From Prochlorococcus sp. AG-418-C09 (lineage in GTDB: Bacteria > Cyanobacteriota > Cyanobacteriia > PCC-6307 > Cyanobiaceae), in assembly GCA_003214355.1 (NCBI GenBank), contig QCLS01000002.1, positions 62,001 through 126,000 on the forward strand: a stretch of DNA of 64,000 bases. Direction: 5' to 3'. The position numbers and the translations under genes are program-made. Each line of letters begins with the position of its first letter. The stretch's first letter is position 1. Below are positions 3,532 to 26,133 of this stretch, piece by piece. The notes below the pieces were generated by a model. It did no database searches, was not told the origin of the DNA, and saw only the letters and a list, made by a program, of their open reading frames with translations.

Positions 3532-3591
3532 TAGTAGAACCTTGAGAACTGCATAGAAATAAATTATAAAGTCAATAAAAAGAGTTTATTA

Positions 3592-6466
<2,875 letters not shown>

Positions 6467-7012: not shown

Positions 7013-8503
<1,491 letters not shown>

Positions 8504-9123
8504 AAATCCTTTTGTAATTAATTAAAATTACTCAATTTGATTTGCTTATCCCAAATATGTAAATTGATTCACAAAATTTAGTATTAGCTTCCTTAAAAGT
8601 AAATCTAAGGAATTAAGAGTGCACAAAAAGTTTTTTTGTGACTTTCCAGGATCTCAGATCCGTTGGTCATCAAAACTTTATTGAGAAAAATCCCAAGTTA
8701 GGAATTGATAACATTTTTATATTCTTGACGGGACCTCACACCTTTATTGAAATTACATCCATTCAGAAATTAAAAAAATTAATTTCGTTATGGACACAAT
8801 AAAAGCGTCAGTTCCTAAGTTTAAATTTTCTAGGTGCAAAGTTTGACTTAAAAATAAATCAAACTATTTTGAGGGAGAATCCCTCTGCTGGTTAAAGATT
8901 ATGATTTAATCAAGATCTTCAAACTACTCATAAAATTTATCAAAGATATTCATCTAGATAAATTTTGAGCGGTGCAAAAAAAATATTTGTGCCCAGAAGA
9001 AAATTTTAGACCATCAATATATGATTGTGCAACCATTAATACATATTTTTTTTATTAATTTCTTTTTGCTTTCAATTCTCAGTTCACGAAGTAGGCTGTA
9101 AATAGAGGGAATTTACATAAAAA

Positions 9124-10563
9124 ATGGCCGAAAGATTTAGTCAAAAAAATTTAAGAGTCCGTCCTAGTTCAGATGAAGACAAAATTGTAACAAATGCAAA
9201 AGAACATTTTGAAAAGACTTTAGTCGAGATTTCAGGTGAAATTGTTGGAAGTGTAGCAGCATTAGAACATCCTACAAAAAACAAAAAACTAAATTACGGC
9301 GAAATATTTTTAAGGGATAATGTTCCTGTGATGATTTACCTTTTAACACAGAAAAGATATGAAATAGTTAGAAAGTTTCTGAGTGTTTGCTTAGATTTAC
9401 AAAGCACAAGCTATCAGACCAGAGGAGTATTTCCAACAAGTTTTGTTGAAGAAAAAGGTGAATTAATAGGAGATTATGGTCAAAGATCCATTGGGAGAAT
9501 AACTTCTGCAGACGCAAGTCTCTGGTGGCCAATCTTATGTTGGCTTTATGTAAAAAAGAGTGGAGATAAATCTTTTGGCAAAAGTCAAGGAGTTCAAAGA
9601 GCTATTCAGCTTCTACTTGATCTTGTGTTACATCCAACTTTAGAGGGTACCCCTGTTTTATTTGTTCCAGATTGTGCATTTATGATCGACAGACCCATGG
9701 ATGTCTGGGGGGCACCTTTGGAAGTTGAAGTTTTACTCCATGGTTGTTTGAAGAGTTGTATAAAATTAATGGAATTAAGCCGCGAAGATCACGTGAGCAG
9801 ACTACTAGATCAAAGATTAATCCTCACAAGGCAATGGGTAGAAGATTTAAGAAACTTCCTTTTGAAGCACTATTGGGTAACAAGTAAAACCATGCAAATT
9901 TTGAGAAGAAGACCCACAGAACAATATGGCGATGATCAGCACTACAATGAATTCAATGTTCAGCCCCAAGTAGTGCCTTCATGGCTTCAAGACTGGCTTG
10001 AGAATAGAGGTGGATATTTAATTGGGAACATAAGAACAGGGAGACCTGATTTTAGATTTTATAGTTTAGGTAATTCGCTAGCTTGCATGTTTAGTGTTTT
10101 ACCCGCAGCGGAACAAAGGGCCTTATTCAGATTAGTTTTGCATAATAGGCAACATTTAATGGCACAAATGCCAATGAGGATTTGTCACCCACATATGGAT
10201 GTGGAAGAATGGCAAAACAAAACTGGATCGGATCCAAAAAATTGGCCATGGAGTTATCACAATGGAGGTCACTGGCCAAGCCTTCTTTGGTTTTTTGCAT
10301 CATCAGTCCTATTACATCAAAAAAGATATCCATCTGAAGACGTCATATTAATGGAGGAAATGCGATCATTAATTGAAGAATCTTACTGGTGCCAGTTAAA
10401 TCAACTCCCTAAACAAGAATGGGCAGAGTATTTTGACGGTCCAACAGGGACTTGGGTGGGGCAACAATCCAGAACGTATCAAACATGGACAATTGTAGGT
10501 TTTTTACTTATGAATTATTTCTTAAGAGAAGGGGCTGATGATATTGATATGTTGAATATTTAA
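9124..10563 (+). CDS. Neutral/alkaline invertase (glycoside hydrolase family 100)
   Basis: 479 aa; FLRDNVPVMIYLL, GQRSIGRITSADASLWWPILCW, IDRPMDVWGAPLEVEVLL, WPWSYHNGGHWPSLLW. Confidence 0.9.
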   Translation: MAERFSQKNLRVRPSSDEDKIVTNAKEHFEKTLVEISGEIVGSVAALEHPTKNKKLNYGEIFLRDNVPVMIYLLTQKRYEIVRKFLSVCLDLQSTSYQTRGVFPTSFVEEKGELIGDYGQRSIGRITSADASLWWPILCWLYVKKSGDKSFGKSQGVQRAIQLLLDLVLHPTLEGTPVLFVPDCAFMIDRPMDVWGAPLEVEVLLHGCLKSCIKLMELSREDHVSRLLDQRLILTRQWVEDLRNFLLKHYWVTSKTMQILRRRPTEQYGDDQHYNEFNVQPQVVPSWLQDWLENRGGYLIGNIRTGRPDFRFYSLGNSLACMFSVLPAAEQRALFRLVLHNRQHLMAQMPMRICHPHMDVEEWQNKTGSDPKNWPWSYHNGGHWPSLLWFFASSVLLHQKRYPSEDVILMEEMRSLIEESYWCQLNQLPKQEWAEYFDGPTGTWVGQQSRTYQTWTIVGFLLMNYFLREGADDIDMLNI

Positions 10564-10564
10564 A

Positions 10565-11047
10565 TTAAAAGAGTCCTAAGGTCAATGATTTATCAATAGG
10601 TAAACAAGCACCTATACCTAAGTATATTGTTAGAAAAGTCCCAAATAAAAATACTGACATTGCTATTGGTCTTCTGAAAGGGTTGGAAAACTTATTAACA
10701 TTTTCAATAAAAGGTAATATCATAAGGCCTAAAGGAATTAAAGTCTGAAGGGCTATACCAAGTAATTTGTTTGGTACAACTCTTAGAATTTGGAACACTG
10801 GGTAAAGGTACCACTCAGGTAATATTTCGAGGGGAGTTGCAAAAGGATTAGCTTTGTCACCTAGCATTGCAGGGTCTAGAACAGCAAGACCTACCACGCA
10901 TGCAATCGTTCCTAAAATTACTACTGGAAATATATAAAGCAGATCATTTGGCCAAGCAGGTTCTCCATAATAATTATGACCCATACCTTTTGCTAATTTT
11001 GCTCTCAGCTTAGGATCTGACAAGTCTGGCTTTTTGAGTGTAGACAT
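10565..11047 (-). CDS. petD: Cytochrome b6-f complex subunit IV
   Basis: [46 protein letters not shown]. Confidence 0.98.
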
Positions 11048-11078
11048 AATCTTTTAAAGTTAATTTTATTTTAATGGG

Positions 11079-11735
11079 TTATAAGGGTCCTGAAATGCCT
11101 TGTTTACGAATCATAAGAAAATGCATCAACATAAATACAGCTAGAGACCATGGAAGAACAAAAGTATGGAGGCTATAAAATCTGGTTAAAGTTGATTGAC
11201 CGACGCTTTCACCTCCTCTTAGAAGTTCAACCATGAAATCGCCAATTACTGGAATTGCGGCAGGAACTCCAGAGACAATCTTAACTGCCCAGTAACCTAC
11301 CTGATCCCAAGGCAGTGAATATCCAGTAACACCAAAAGCTACGGTTATTACTGCCATTACAACTCCTGTTACCCAAGTAAGTTCTCTTGGCCTCTTAAAG
11401 CCTCCTGTTAAATAAACCCTAAAAACGTGAAGTATTAGCATTAACACCATCATAGAAGCGCTCCATCTATGAACTGACCTAATCAACCATCCAAAACTCA
11501 CATCAGTCATCAGGTAACTTACTGAACTATAAGCTTGCGTTACGGTTGGCTTATAGTAAAAAGTCATTGCAAAACCTGTTGCAAATTGAATTAGGAAGCA
11601 TACTAAAGTTATGCCTCCTAAGCAATAAAATATATTGACATGGGGGGGAACGTACTTTGAAGTTACGTCGTCAGTTATGTCCTGAATTTCAAGTCTTTCT
11701 TGAAACCAGTCGTAAACTGATGAAGAATTCGCCAT
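11079..11735 (-). CDS. petB: Cytochrome b6
   Basis: [44 protein letters not shown]...; the track ORF (to 11777) probably over-extends the N-terminus. Confidence 0.97.
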
Positions 11736-11786
11736 CCTTAAAAAAAAAAGCTTTGATACTAGGAGCTTACTTAACAAATCACTAAT

Positions 11787-13103
11787 TTGGTGTTAACACT
11801 TAACCCAATGCCTTCAACTTTTAACAAAATTTTATTATTTAAAAAATTGATCATGGGCTTCATGATCATAATTTTAACGACTACGAATCTTATTATTACC
11901 GACGTTCAGGCACTAAGTGATAGCAAGCAAATAGTGCTTGATGCCTGGACTCTTGTTAACGAGGGCTTTTATGATCCTGAAAAGTTTAATGAGATTGGGT
12001 GGAAGAAAATAAGGCAAAAAACACTACAAAAACAAATTGAATCAACTGAGGAGGCTTATTTAGCAATTGAAGACATGTTAAAGCCTTTAGATGATCCTTA
12101 TACAAGATTATTAAGGCCTAAAGATTATGAATTATTAAAATCTAGTAATCTTGGTAGTGAAATAAATGGAGTAGGTATTCAATTAGGGACAGACGAAACT
12201 ACTGGTGCAATAAAAGTTATATCAACTTTAGGCGGCTCTCCTGCCGAAGAAGCAGGGATTTTATCAGGTGATCTTATTGAGGCAGTGAATGGACAATTGA
12301 CATCAGAATTAGGCCTGGCCAATACAGCTTCAAAATTAAGAGGAGAAAAGGGGACTAAAGTACTAGTAATGATATCCTCAGATGGAGTAACTAAAGAAAT
12401 TGACTTAGAAAGAAGATCTGTAGACCTTAGACCGGTAAGGACAAAAAGGTTAAGAGAAGAAGCTCATACAATTGGTTATTTAAGAATCACACAATTTAGT
12501 GAGAGTGTTCCCAAAAGAATAGAAGAAGCTCTAGTTGAACTTCAGGAGAAAGAGGTTGAAGCAATTATTCTTGATCTGAGGAATAATTCTGGAGGATTAG
12601 TTAGCTCGGGCATTGCTGTAGCAGATTCATTTCTTGATGAGAGTCTCATTGTTGAGACTCAGAATAGAAACGGGATTAAGGATTCTATAGTCTCTCAAAC
12701 GGCTTCTTTATTTGAAGGACCAATGGTTACCTTGGTTAACAAAGGTACAGCCAGCGCTAGCGAAATACTTGCGGGTGCTTTGCAAGACAATGAAAGATCA
12801 GTATTAATAGGGAAGCAAACTTATGGTAAGGGTGTAATTCAGTCCTTAAAAAGCCTTAATGAAACAAGTGGAATAGCAATTACGGTAGCAAGCTATCTAA
12901 CGCCGAATGGGAACAATATTCAAGATAGAGGAATCACACCTGATGTTATTTTAGATTTACCTGAAGCTCAAGATTTCGGCAATTCTGAAGACACCTGGTT
13001 AAAAAATGCAGAAATTTATCTAACATCTATCTTGGATATCGATGAAGAATCAAATAATAAATTGAACTTAGATTTAGAGATAATTACAACTGATGTTGAC
13101 TGA
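11787..13103 (+). CDS. ctpA: Carboxyl-terminal processing protease (S41, PDZ-containing)
   Basis: PDZ region plus [35 protein letters not shown] catalytic motifs; signal-like N-terminus. Confidence 0.93.
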
Positions 13104-13117
13104 CTGATATGGATTAA

Positions 13118-14374
13118 ATGAATAAAAAAATAATCTTCCATGACCCAATTCACAAGGCAATTGTTTTAAACAAAAGCAAAGACGAAGAATTGATGATTCT
13201 TGAGTTAATTGAAACCTTTGCATTTCAGCGCCTCAGAAGAATTAAACAACTAGGTACAGCTTCATTAGTTTTTCATGGAGCAGAAGCCAGTAGATTTACT
13301 CATTCTTTAGGAGTTTTTAATGTCGCACGAAAGATTTATAACAAACTTGCTGATGAAAGAACTAATTTTAAAGACTATAAATTTGTCCTATATGGCGCAG
13401 CTTTGTTACACGATCTTGGGCATGGGCCATTTAGTCATACTAGTGAGGAAATTTTTTTACATAGGCATGAATCATGGTCCAAAAGACTTATCCAAGAATA
13501 TTCTCCTATTCAATCAATCCTGAGAAAGTATGGGGAAAATACCGTAGAACAAATCGCAGACTTATTCACTTCCAAAACCCTATTCACAAATCCAATCAAA
13601 ACACTAATAAGTAGCGAAATTGATTGTGATAGATTGGACTACTTATTACGTGATAGCTATAATACTGGAACGAAATATGGATTAGTTGATTTAGAACGAA
13701 TCATTTCTGCTCTAACCTTTGGACCTGACTCAAGCATAGCTATAAAGCCCAAAGGTGTAATGGCAATAGAGCATTTTTTAGTTCTGAGAAATATTATGTA
13801 TAGAACAATTTATAATCATAGAATTAATGAGATATGCACTTGGATCTTAGAGAAAATCATAAGTACAATTAGAAGTAAATTTAATAAGAAAATCTGGATA
13901 GATAAATATTTATATAAATGGATTCATACTCCAGAAAAACTAGATTTTGAAGAGTTCTTAGCTATTGATGATATATCACTTGGCTATCACCTAAACGTAT
14001 GGAAAGAACAAGCTCCAGAACCTATATCCACACTATGTAGAATGTTTCTCAATAGAAAACTTCTAAAAGCTTCAGATATAAGTACTCTTGACAATATAAA
14101 GAAACTTGAACTTTTGGCTTTTGCCAAAAAGAAATGTGATGAAAACAGCTTTGATTCCAATTTATTTTGTGGACTAAAAGAAAAAAAATTCAAAGGATTT
14201 GAGTCCAATAATTCCTTAAAAGTTTGGAACGGCAATTTATTTATTAATTTAGAAGATTCTTCAATTTTAATAAAAGCACTTATGAATTCTCAAAGAAGCT
14301 CTCTCATCATATATCCCGAAGTAATAAGAACACAGATTAAAGAAAAAATATCACTTTTGAAAACACTGAAATAA
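13118..14374 (+). CDS. HD-superfamily phosphohydrolase (dGTPase-like)
   Basis: RFTHSLGVFNVARKI, LLHDLGHGPFSHTSE, SSEIDCDRLDYLLRDSYNTG. Confidence 0.9.
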   Translation: MNKKIIFHDPIHKAIVLNKSKDEELMILELIETFAFQRLRRIKQLGTASLVFHGAEASRFTHSLGVFNVARKIYNKLADERTNFKDYKFVLYGAALLHDLGHGPFSHTSEEIFLHRHESWSKRLIQEYSPIQSILRKYGENTVEQIADLFTSKTLFTNPIKTLISSEIDCDRLDYLLRDSYNTGTKYGLVDLERIISALTFGPDSSIAIKPKGVMAIEHFLVLRNIMYRTIYNHRINEICTWILEKIISTIRSKFNKKIWIDKYLYKWIHTPEKLDFEEFLAIDDISLGYHLNVWKEQAPEPISTLCRMFLNRKLLKASDISTLDNIKKLELLAFAKKKCDENSFDSNLFCGLKEKKFKGFESNNSLKVWNGNLFINLEDSSILIKALMNSQRSSLIIYPEVIRTQIKEKISLLKTLK

Positions 14375-15027
14375 TGAAAATAGTTTTTGAAAATGAAAAT
14401 ACTGAAACCATTGATACAACTTTTTTCAGGTCTTTTGAAGAATGCAAAAGTACAATCATAAATAAACCTTCATCTTTAATACCCTTACGTGCATATCTAT
14501 TTACCTTCGAGATAATTCTCAGCTGCTCAAAACTAAAAGAACTTAAAACTATATTTAATTCAAGAAATATAAATTTGATAGCTATTTATACACATTCAAG
14601 AGAAACATCCATATGCGCTAACGCTTTAAAAATAAAGGCCTATTATGAACTACCGTCAAACAAATATAACCATATAAACTTTAAGCAAACAAAAAGCAAT
14701 ACTGACTATTATCACAAAGGGACAATAAGATCTGGTAATAAAATATCTTCAAACGGAAATCTTTTTATTATTGGAGATGTAAACCCAGGAGCTCAAATAT
14801 CAGCTAAAAAAAACATTTACGTATGGGGTAAATTGTGTGGTATTGCAATTGCAGGAAAAGACGGTGATGATAAATCCACAATCTCGTCACTTTACTTAAA
14901 CCCTTTGCAATTAAGGATAAATACCTCTTTGGCGATTGGTCCAAAAGAAAAACCTAATGATTTTTATCCGGAAATCGCACTTTTAGAAGGGGGAGAAATT
15001 GTTATCAAACCTCTACTAATTAAATGA
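14374..15027 (+). CDS. minC: Septum site-determining protein MinC
   Basis: C-terminal MinC beta-helix (GTIRSGNKISSNGNLFIIGDVNPGAQISAKKNIYVWGKLCGIAIAG) directly upstream of minD. Confidence 0.92.
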   Translation: MKIVFENENTETIDTTFFRSFEECKSTIINKPSSLIPLRAYLFTFEIILSCSKLKELKTIFNSRNINLIAIYTHSRETSICANALKIKAYYELPSNKYNHINFKQTKSNTDYYHKGTIRSGNKISSNGNLFIIGDVNPGAQISAKKNIYVWGKLCGIAIAGKDGDDKSTISSLYLNPLQLRINTSLAIGPKEKPNDFYPEIALLEGGEIVIKPLLIK

Positions 15028-15147
15028 AAAATAATTCAATAATTTGAAATAAATTATTCGAGTATTAATAATTTAAGAATTCCTTAATTTTTTGCATTTG
15101 TCTAGTTTAAAAACTCACTTATTATCTGTAAATATCGAGTTTTTTTT

Positions 15148-15963
15148 GTGGCGAATAAAAGTCGCACTATTTTAATTTGTTCTGGTAAGGGTGGAGTTGG
15201 GAAAACAACTCTAACTGCTAACCTCGGAATCGCCCTTGCTCATAGTGGAGCTACCACTGCAGTACTTGATGCTGACTTTGGTTTAAGGAATCTTGATCTT
15301 CTTCTAGGTCTTGAAAATCGTATTATCTATACAGCCCAAGATGTTCTTGACAATAATTGTCGTCTCGAACAAGCCTTAGTACGGCATAAACAAGAGCCAA
15401 ATTTGGCTTTATTGCCAGCAGGCGACCCAAGGATGCTGGACTGGATGAAACCAGAAGACATGAAAAGAATTAGTGATTTACTAAGTGAAAAATTTGATTA
15501 TGTCCTAATAGATTGCCCTGCTGGAGTCGAAGATGGCTTCAAAAATGCACTTGCTGGTTGCAAAGAAGCTATTGTCGTAACTAATCCAGAATTATCTGCT
15601 GTTAGAGATGCAGATAGAGTTGTGGGTATATTGAACACATGCGACGTAGAACCTATCCAACTTGTCATAAACAGAGTAAGACCTAATATGATGGCCAATC
15701 AAGAAATGCTCTCAATTGAAGATGTCACTGGTATACTCTCATTACCATTGCTAGGAATAGTTTTGGAAGATGAGCAGGTTATTATTAGTACTAATAGAGG
15801 GGAGCCATTAACATTATCTGGAAAGAAATCTCCGGCTTCTAAATGCTATATCAATGTTTCTCAAAGACTTTCTGGTGAGGATGTTCCTGTTATTGACCCT
15901 AATAAAGAAGGGAAAAATTTTAGAGATAAATTCATGAGATTAATGCAAACAAAGATTTTCTAA
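15148..15963 (+). CDS. minD: Septum site-determining ATPase MinD
   Basis: [22 protein letters not shown] deviant Walker [21 protein letters not shown]. Confidence 0.97.
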
Positions 15964-23767: not shown

Positions 23768-25036
23768 ATGAAACCGAAATATTTTGGAGGTCTAGACTTT
23801 GGAACTAGCGGAGCAAGAATTTCAATTATAAATTGTCAAAAGAAATTAATTCATTCAGATGTGACTGCTTATAAATATGGATTTAAAGATCCAAAATCCT
23901 GGGTTATTTCATGCGCGAAATTGTTAAAAGATACTCCAGAATACATAAAGAAAGATTTATCAAAGATTTCAATTTCAGGAACATCAGGGACTTTACTTGC
24001 TTGTTCATTTCAAGGTAAAGAGTTAGGAAATTCAATTCCTTATAATCAAATATGTAAGGTTGACAAAGAAACTCTTCATACAATTTCAGAAAATATTAAT
24101 TCTCTTAAAAGTCCATATAGTGGATTATCTAAAGCCTTAGAGTTGATAAGTATTTATGGTGAAAATATTCTCTTAAGACATCAGTCTGATTGGATAACAG
24201 GGTGGTTATTAAATAATTGGGCATTTGGTGAAGAAGGAAATAATATAAAACTAGGATGGAATATTGCAAAAGGATGCTGGCCTAAATCTTATAACTCACT
24301 TTCCTGGAAGAAATCTCTACCATTCATAGTAAAAAGTGGAGAAATACTTGGAAAGGTAGATGAATCAATAGTAAATAAATTAGATTTAAGTAGAGAACTA
24401 TTAATTATTTCAGGCACAACTGACTCTAACGCTTCTTATATTGCAGCCGAGGTTGCTAAAGATGAGGGTCTAACTGTTCTTGGCTCTACAATAGTTCTAA
24501 AGAAATATACAAAAAAACCAGCATATATTACTGGAGTTACAAATCACAAATTAAACGGGGATTGGATAATTGGAGGCTCATCAAATGCAGGTTGCAAAAT
24601 TCTCTCTGAATTCTTTTCAGATTCAGATATTGAAGAATTAAGCAGGCAAATTAATCCAAGCAAAACAACTAATCTTAGTTATTTACCTTTAAATAGCAAT
24701 GGAGAGCGTTTCCCGATCAATGATCCCAAGCTGAAGCCAATCCTAACGCCAAGGCCAGTTAGCGATTCCCTCTATCTTCATGCTTTATTAGAAGGCCTTG
24801 CAAAAATCGAATTAAAAGGCTGGGAAAAATTAAAGGAATTAACGGGTACACTCCCAAGTAAGATAGTTACTATAGGAGGCGGTGCAAAGAATCCACAATG
24901 GAGATATATAAGACAAAAAATAATAAGAATACCAATAATTACGTCAAAAAAAACAACTTCTTACGGAACCGCCTTACTCGCACTTAATTCAAAATTAAAT
25001 AATCCCAGATCAGGATTCTTATCTGAATTTAGTTAA
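23768..25036 (+). CDS. FGGY-family carbohydrate kinase
   Basis: GGLDFGTSGARISIIN; SDWITGWLL; SGTTDSNASYIAAE; VTIGGGAKNPQWRYIR. Confidence 0.86.
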   Translation: MKPKYFGGLDFGTSGARISIINCQKKLIHSDVTAYKYGFKDPKSWVISCAKLLKDTPEYIKKDLSKISISGTSGTLLACSFQGKELGNSIPYNQICKVDKETLHTISENINSLKSPYSGLSKALELISIYGENILLRHQSDWITGWLLNNWAFGEEGNNIKLGWNIAKGCWPKSYNSLSWKKSLPFIVKSGEILGKVDESIVNKLDLSRELLIISGTTDSNASYIAAEVAKDEGLTVLGSTIVLKKYTKKPAYITGVTNHKLNGDWIIGGSSNAGCKILSEFFSDSDIEELSRQINPSKTTNLSYLPLNSNGERFPINDPKLKPILTPRPVSDSLYLHALLEGLAKIELKGWEKLKELTGTLPSKIVTIGGGAKNPQWRYIRQKIIRIPIITSKKTTSYGTALLALNSKLNNPRSGFLSEFS

Positions 25037-25102: not shown

Positions 25103-25175
25103 GCCGGGATAGCTCAGTTGGTAGAGCAGGCGACTGAAAATCGCCGTGTCCCCAGTTCAAATCTGGGTCCTGGCA
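25103..25175 (+). tRNA. tRNA-Phe (anticodon GAA)
   Basis: GCCGGGATAGCTCAGTTGGTAGAGCAGGCGACTGAAAATCGCCGTGTCCCCAGTTCAAATCTGGGTCCTGGCA. Confidence 0.96.
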
Positions 25176-25185
25176 CCTTTAAACC
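25156..25185 (+). repeat. Direct repeat copy 1 (tRNA-Phe 3' end and start of terminator)
   Basis: TTCAAATCTGGGTCCTGGCACCTTTAAACC, identical 30 bp at 25298. Confidence 0.97.
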
Positions 25186-25204
25186 CTTTCTCAGATAGGG
25201 TTTT
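25181..25204 (+). terminator. Intrinsic terminator downstream of tRNA-Phe
   Basis: AAACCCtttctcagataGGGTTTT stem-loop. Confidence 0.7.
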
Positions 25205-25297
25205 AACGTTTTTAAGTGGTATGTAAGTTACACTCTTAATTTAAGTAAAAGATAGTTATAACAATTTTTCAGATGGTTAGTACCCAAAAAAGCCTTA

Positions 25298-25327
25298 TTC
25301 AAATCTGGGTCCTGGCACCTTTAAACC
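25298..25327 (+). repeat. Direct repeat copy 2 (isolated tRNA-Phe 3' end fragment)
   Basis: Same 30 bp as 25156-25185, offset 142 bp, followed by a second similar stem (AAACCTaatctacgaATAGGGTTT). Confidence 0.97.
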
Positions 25328-25437
25328 TAATCTACGAATAGGGTTTAATTATTTCCAGAACTTTAATCTAGTACATAATTAACACTGAGCTTCAAAGAAA
25401 AAGATCTGCTAATCTTATATGAAACTTTGACTAATAT

Positions 25438-26133
25438 TTGATAAAAACTATGAATAAATTTAGAAAAAAATTACGGATAAAATCTATTTATATAAAAGTA
25501 TTCTTAATCATCATTTTAATTGCAGCTTTTGCTGGAGTTGTTAGCTCATTATTGAATTACTATAAAGAACCAATAATCTTAATTGTAGAGAGGATGGGTA
25601 TTTGGGCACCTCTTGCGATTTTCACAATGAGAGGTGTAAGTATTATTTTCCCAGCAATGCCAAGTTCATTCTTTTCTTTAATAGCAGGAAATATATTGGG
25701 ATTTAAAAATGGTTATATTACTATAGTTTGTTCGGACTTTATTTTTTGCCAGGCCGCTTTTTTTATAGCCAGATTTTATGGCAGATCTATAGTGAAGAAA
25801 TTAGTAGGGATGAAAGCAATGAAAAGAATAGAAAATTTTAATCAGAACCAATTAGAAGAAAATTTCTTTTTAATGACAGGTCTTTTAATGACCGGATTAT
25901 TCGATTTCTTAAGTTATTCAATTGGCCTAGGTGGAACAAAATGGAAAATATTCTCCCCTGCTTTATTAATAAGCCTTTTAATATCGGACTCAATATTAGT
26001 GGCCGTAGGAGCAGAATTAGGGGGTGGAAATAAAATCTATTTAGGTTTGGCATTATTGGGAGCATTTGCACTAGCTGTTATTTCTGGTCTCACTAACAAA
26101 AAAATAAAACCTAAAAAGGATTCTCTTCCATGA
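25438..26133 (+). CDS. TVP38/TMEM64 (SNARE-associated/DedA-like) membrane protein
   Basis: WAPLAIFTMRGVSIIFPAMPSSFFSLIAGNILGFKNGYITIVCSDF...; several TM segments; start uncertain. Confidence 0.75.
   Translation: MIKTMNKFRKKLRIKSIYIKVFLIIILIAAFAGVVSSLLNYYKEPIILIVERMGIWAPLAIFTMRGVSIIFPAMPSSFFSLIAGNILGFKNGYITIVCSDFIFCQAAFFIARFYGRSIVKKLVGMKAMKRIENFNQNQLEENFFLMTGLLMTGLFDFLSYSIGLGGTKWKIFSPALLISLLISDSILVAVGAELGGGNKIYLGLALLGAFALAVISGLTNKKIKPKKDSLP

Follow-up and report, generated by a model that had tools for sequence, protein, structure and literature searches.

Gene-free relics of integrative elements have been described in Streptococcus salivarius, where the so-called microCIMEs, which are cis-mobilizable units of 130-220 bp that have kept their att sites, derive from conjugative or mobilizable elements (ICE/IME) (PMC7563491). 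The same work deals with CIMEs, that is, decayed elements that still bear cargo and lack recombination genes of their own, and describes a route of accretion for them (PMC7563491). In Prochlorococcus, the elements known as tycheposons, whose length ranges from 4 to 200 kb, insert at tRNA genes, of which seven have been published as targets, and carry variable cargo together with, in full elements, a tyrosine recombinase (PMC10872708).

The unit of 142 bp that we describe here is located in a 64-kb window (the whole stretch of DNA that was analysed, to which all positions of the window's features refer), and it is, with high probability, what is left after the collapse of an integrative element that had inserted site-specifically in the 3' end of a tRNA-Phe gene. 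As far as the features given for microCIMEs allow a comparison, the two are alike in their length (142 bp from core to core in the window), in the absence of genes and in the presence of two att sites at the 3' end of the target gene; the likeness extends to a related genome (G110), in which a small unit stands in tandem with a larger one. They differ in the target, which is here the tRNA-Phe gene of a marine cyanobacterium, and in the fact that genes for conjugation, mobilization or a relaxase were not recognised in the part of the tRNA-Phe cargo that was scanned. The arm repeats found at the fusion point of the tRNA-Phe units (see below) are not among the microCIME features compared (PMC7563491). 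With the tycheposons, the tRNA-Phe units share the Prochlorococcus host, the insertion at a tRNA gene and the variable cargo. However, the window unit falls far short of the 4-200 kb reported for tycheposons (PMC10872708) and contains no tyrosine recombinase, and for these two reasons we have filed it as a tycheposon-like remnant rather than as a tycheposon proper. Most of the other tRNA-Phe units resemble CIMEs, in that their two cores enclose cargo but no recombinase. Overall, the tRNA-Phe site exhibits the marks of integrative elements, i.e., a flanking repeat of the tRNA 3' end, an empty site with one copy, variable cargo and, in some members, a probable integrase family. Since empty, occupied and collapsed states are found together, the locus represents a worked case of small-element turnover at one tRNA gene of an abundant ocean phototroph.

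The tRNA-Phe gene and its duplicated 3' end

The intact target gene, a tRNA-Phe (GAA), lies at 25103-25177 on the forward strand according to ARAGORN, in agreement with Rfam, and is the sole tRNA-Phe match found across the 1.6-Mb genome. Two genes on the same strand mark the locus, and their order is kept in relatives: an FGGY-type carbohydrate kinase upstream (23768-25036) and a TVP38-like membrane protein downstream (25450-26133). The first-pass annotation had reported an exact 30-bp repeat, TTCAAATCTGGGTCCTGGCACCTTTAAACC, recurring after 142 bp, and this was confirmed at 25156-25185 and 25298-25327; none would be expected by chance, the 22-mer within the repeat having two matches in the 64 kb and none in 100 shuffles. 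The first 22 nt of each copy represent the attachment core, the left one (25156-25177) coinciding with the tRNA 3' end and the right one being located at 25298-25319. It had also been stated that the second copy is devoid of a tRNA body and is followed by a similar terminator stem, and that no ORF separates the two copies. Both statements hold: for the second copy, ARAGORN detected no tRNA body and Rfam no RNA family (the latter recognised here the tRNA only, plus one sub-threshold antisense match), the two copies remain alike beyond the repeat, with 82% identity over 51 nt reaching through the second hairpin, and no ORF of at least 60 aa was found between them. No comparable 3'-end duplication was seen at the other tRNA genes of the window.

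Two terminator-like structures belong to this arrangement. The first one, a hairpin (-8.2 kcal/mol) with a T run at 25178-25215, directly 3' of the tRNA, matches the left ends of other units and corresponds to the left end supplied by the element; the second one, at 25320-25356 (-5.9 kcal/mol), corresponds to the terminator that tRNA-Phe had on the chromosome before the insertion separated the two, the flank that follows it being homologous to that of G265. This genome is the nearest relative found (71% and 85% amino acid identity for the FGGY kinase and the TVP38-like protein, respectively) and has one core. The G265 DNA immediately after the tRNA aligns with the window DNA past the second core, with a score of 61 vs. 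24.8 for shuffles (sd 4.5; z 8.0), and its alignment with the window flank past the terminator gives a z of 7.3; the window spacer, on the other hand, has no match in the G265 DNA after the tRNA (z 0.3, and 0.05 past the terminator). The fact that the G265 flank matches the sequence past the second copy, and not the spacer, indicates that the 142 bp were inserted and brought with them the terminator now adjoining the tRNA. Thus, of the earlier suggestion that this might be an empty or collapsed integration site, the second half is supported and the first half is not, as the site is still occupied.

Empty and occupied sites in related genomes

The 22-nt core is present, with up to two mismatches, in 217 of the 266 genomes of the genus, and the named records containing the whole 30-mer all belong to Prochlorococcus. 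Counting from the table of core matches at the same threshold, 35 of the 217 core-bearing genomes, the window's included, harbor two or three copies. Sufficiently long contigs show metK, the FGGY kinase, tRNA-Phe, the insert and the second core in succession, followed by TVP38 or the usual neighbour. Overall, 33 core-to-core units were delimited in 32 contiguous loci (again with that of the window), with lengths of 140, 142, 146, 252 and 267 bp and, for the remainder, from 653 bp to 8,067 bp. Most of the units at the tRNA-Phe site are shorter than 4 kb and lack a recombinase, and their cargo is varied, including repeat proteins and small membrane or secreted proteins; in G215 the cargo genes look like those of a DNA methyltransferase and a helicase-type protein. 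The comparison across strains that the first-pass annotation had called for, looking for cargo and an integrase between the copies and for strains with one copy, yielded both kinds: cores are spaced from 140 bp to 8.07 kb apart, a probable tyrosine recombinase is present at several of the occupied sites, and many genomes are empty at this locus. An arrangement of 142 bp fixed in all strains, one of the two outcomes that the same annotation had regarded as adverse to its reading, was not found across the Prochlorococcus genomes compared, and for the other one, a conserved small RNA comprising the second copy, Rfam gave no match.

At the empty site of most of the one-copy genomes examined, a conserved gene of 139 aa follows the tRNA at a distance of about 100 bp, and TVP38 at about 630-650 bp. 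The 139-aa protein, encoded on the minus strand between the second core (or tRNA-Phe) and TVP38 (e.g., at 3913-4332 of locus L062), has no Pfam match, and its gene is missing from that place in the window as well as in G265, G006 and G109. A few loci possess additional element-like ends beyond the second core; in L067, L079, L073 and L096 these are element-type left ends, which implies that several units can stack in tandem at tRNA-Phe. One cargo protein, characterized by MKDFLLKIFNFLKDLYNKLIKFLKS and a variable number of KPVEEE-type repeats, is common to L062, L069, L074, L076, L095 and L096; the units encoding it are integrase-free and more alike than their flanks.

The units bear short direct repeats near both ends, as would be expected if a tyrosine recombinase bound there to arm-type sites, and these arms are presumably recombinase-binding sites. 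The sequence of the repeat is specific to a class: A, TGGAGTACA; B, GTATGGAAG or GTATGTAAG; C, GCAGTACA; D, GGAATGTTAG; E, GTATGGAAC; F, GGAATGGTAC. Among units of more than 450 bp, the longest word that the two terminal stretches of 200 nt have in common within a unit has a mean of 13.0 nt, vs. 9.4 nt across units and 8.0 nt in shuffles, and none of 5000 permutations reached the mean observed within units. These classes could make it possible to link integrase-free islands to their recombinases.

The spacer of the window can be read in the same terms. After the first terminator it contains a lone class-B arm repeat, GTGGTATGTAAG (25216-25227), then, 26 nt further on, the conserved right-end motif AGTTATAAC (25254-25262), and, after another 35 nt, the second core. 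The right ends of class-B units (L067, L073 and L094) are built in the same way, with GTATGGAAG, 25 nt, AGTTATAAC, 35 nt and the core. The closest match to the spacer among left ends is that of an 891-bp unit (L098, in G035; z 19.8), and the right-end matches are those of L073 (z 7.6), L067 (z 6.9) and L094 (z 4.6). Both GTATG[GT]AAG, searched for on both strands, and AGTTATAAC occur once in the 64-kb window, namely in the spacer. The doubled class-B arm (allowing one mismatch) was found at six places in four of the 266 genomes, exclusively in tRNA-Phe units, and was not found in the window's own genome. The window spacer consists, therefore, of one left end joined to one right end, with the remaining arm at the point of fusion.

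Probable collapse of the unit and alternative explanations

The sequence of events that we favor is the following. An element would have inserted site-specifically into the tRNA-Phe 3' end, leaving on the left a complete tRNA with a 3' end and a terminator supplied by the element, and on the right the second core followed by the original flank. This element would have carried direct arm repeats near each end, and a deletion between the left-arm and the right-arm repeat, possibly via recombination between them, would then have removed the cargo and fused the left end to the right end, with the two cores intact, i.e., a microCIME-like scar. Given the left end, one arm and the right end observed in the spacer, a deletion between arm repeats appears to be the simplest route. 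The scar is probably not mobile by itself, although a recombinase acting in trans could possibly still use it as a target or a substrate. Within the window's own species, no uncollapsed parent of the 142-bp unit is known, and a recombinase belonging to arm class B was not found in cis at the units examined.

Other short units at the same site bear on this point. G110 harbors a class-B unit of 140 bp, built like that of the window and placed in tandem with one of 1,058 bp; in G133 a class-A unit of 146 bp contains two arms followed by right-end-like sequence; and G063 possesses a class-D unit of 252 bp. It might be argued from the near-equal length and build of the two class-B units, and from the apparent spread of integrase-free units of about 1 kb between lineages, that the 142 bp are no deletion scar at all, having been inserted ready-made by a trans-supplied recombinase as a gene-free mini-element some 140 bp long and made up of a core, a single arm, the right-end motif and another core. 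We regard this as improbable: three arm classes include collapsed units, and in each class the fusion lies at the arm of that class, a pattern that a deletion predicts and that favors it over a single spreading mini-element; fusion at the arm accounts for the near-equal lengths; and the units of the window and of G110 are clearly different in sequence.

It is very unlikely that slippage or unequal exchange simply duplicated the 3' end of the tRNA and its terminator in tandem, without the involvement of a mobile element. The first-pass annotation had mentioned such an aberrant duplication as an alternative, and a short direct duplication adjoining its parent gene, with a similar hairpin in both copies, is indeed what it would leave; however, the spacer is composed of the ends of an element rather than of chromosomal DNA copied from nearby, since it is unlike the flank of G265 and matches the ends of inserted units, and the same site holds many kinds of cargo in relatives. 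Finally, it is barely credible that the second copy belongs to a small RNA with a tRNA-like end and a terminator of its own, even if T-arm and acceptor sequence and a terminator-like hairpin are retained there, given the silence of Rfam, the lack of a second copy in one-copy genomes including the nearest relative, and the identity of that hairpin as the displaced chromosomal terminator.

Integrase-free units, recombinases and other elements

Class-D units of about 0.8-1 kb have no recognisable recombinase. Those of G263 and G264 are 98% identical, vs. 66-67% for the FGGY flanks, and the unit of G115 is 96% identical to those of G039 and G120, vs. 72-79% for the flank; in the same pairs, the similarity drops to 43-52% in the first 100 nt past the second core. 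Units that are 96-98% identical between flanks of 66-79% suggest horizontal spread, and integrase-free units of about 1 kb appear, from these comparisons, to cross lineages with boundaries at the core. The data suggest, in other words, that integrase-less cassettes of this size are spreading among distant lineages. In this respect the tRNA-Phe units differ from CIMEs as described, because an apparent movement between distant genomes fits service in trans as well as accretion (PMC7563491). A recombinase acting in trans on the integrase-free units is presumably the natural reading, and it is also possible that they were carried inside a larger transferred element. More tentatively, and with more doubt than confidence, one might envisage tRNA-Phe as the host of a pool of integrase-free cassettes, from about 140 bp and gene-free to several kb, with interchangeable arm codes and moved between species by trans-supplied recombinases; the window unit would be the smallest form of such cassettes, and maybe still a substrate.

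As for the recombinase itself, the 5.3-kb unit of G182 encodes a serine resolvase (PF00239) and a protein of 513 aa that found no convincing support among Pfam, PHROG, NCBIfam or PDB profiles. The family of the latter occurs in 9 of the 266 genomes, and in five of them at least part of the gene is located at the tRNA-Phe site, i.e., in G182 and G034, in G137, where a contig break splits it, in G134, where it contains a stop codon, and in G215, where an N-terminal remnant is left. An alignment of seven sequences revealed invariant R305, K337, R413-H414-T415 and Y451; when its profile was compared with that of ordinary integrases, the boxes containing RHT and Y aligned, with a P of 0.0064 and a reported probability of just 5.9%. 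On the basis of these motifs and of one weak profile match, the protein is a probable divergent tyrosine recombinase. No relative of it was found in the window's genome, which encodes three ordinary proteins of the Phage_integrase family, and no recombinase lies within the 142 bp.

The viral contigs searched contained no match to the 22-mer core, to a second core pattern or to the doubled class-B arm, nor to the recombinase when queried with a single sequence or with the alignment, and the phage records had no recombinase match either. A class-D arm match in one viral contig (L173, from IMG/VR) was judged incidental, the contig being rich in repeats, with phage-like genes and no tRNA gene. This contig carries an array of the 23-bp repeat AAAAAGTCCGTAAAATCTTATGT at 1-450, and a repeat of 111 bp occurs at 3564 and again at the contig end.

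Two further loci were observed in the window's own genome. At a tRNA-Ser gene (L164, G000:C7:66000-79837), an apparently complete integrative element extends over about 8182-13745, with an ordinary integrase of 413 aa (8446-9687) adjoining the tRNA, a 26-bp arm repeat, TTCAGACACATGTAAAAACACATGTA, at 8377 and 13646, a serine-resolvase-like protein of 230 aa and, near 13733-13735, a second partial end in which CCACCCTCTCCGG of the tRNA-Ser end recurs; the general architecture thus occurs in this organism. In the other locus (L165, G000:C4:82500-102400; 10373-15340), the 3' end of a gene encoding an integrase of 430 aa (9122-10414) is repeated at 12675 (94% identity in 67 nt) and, with less similarity, at 15274, so that it looks as though the end of the integrase gene had itself served as an insertion site for further elements; a DnaB-type-helicase-like protein of 307 aa is encoded between the repeats.
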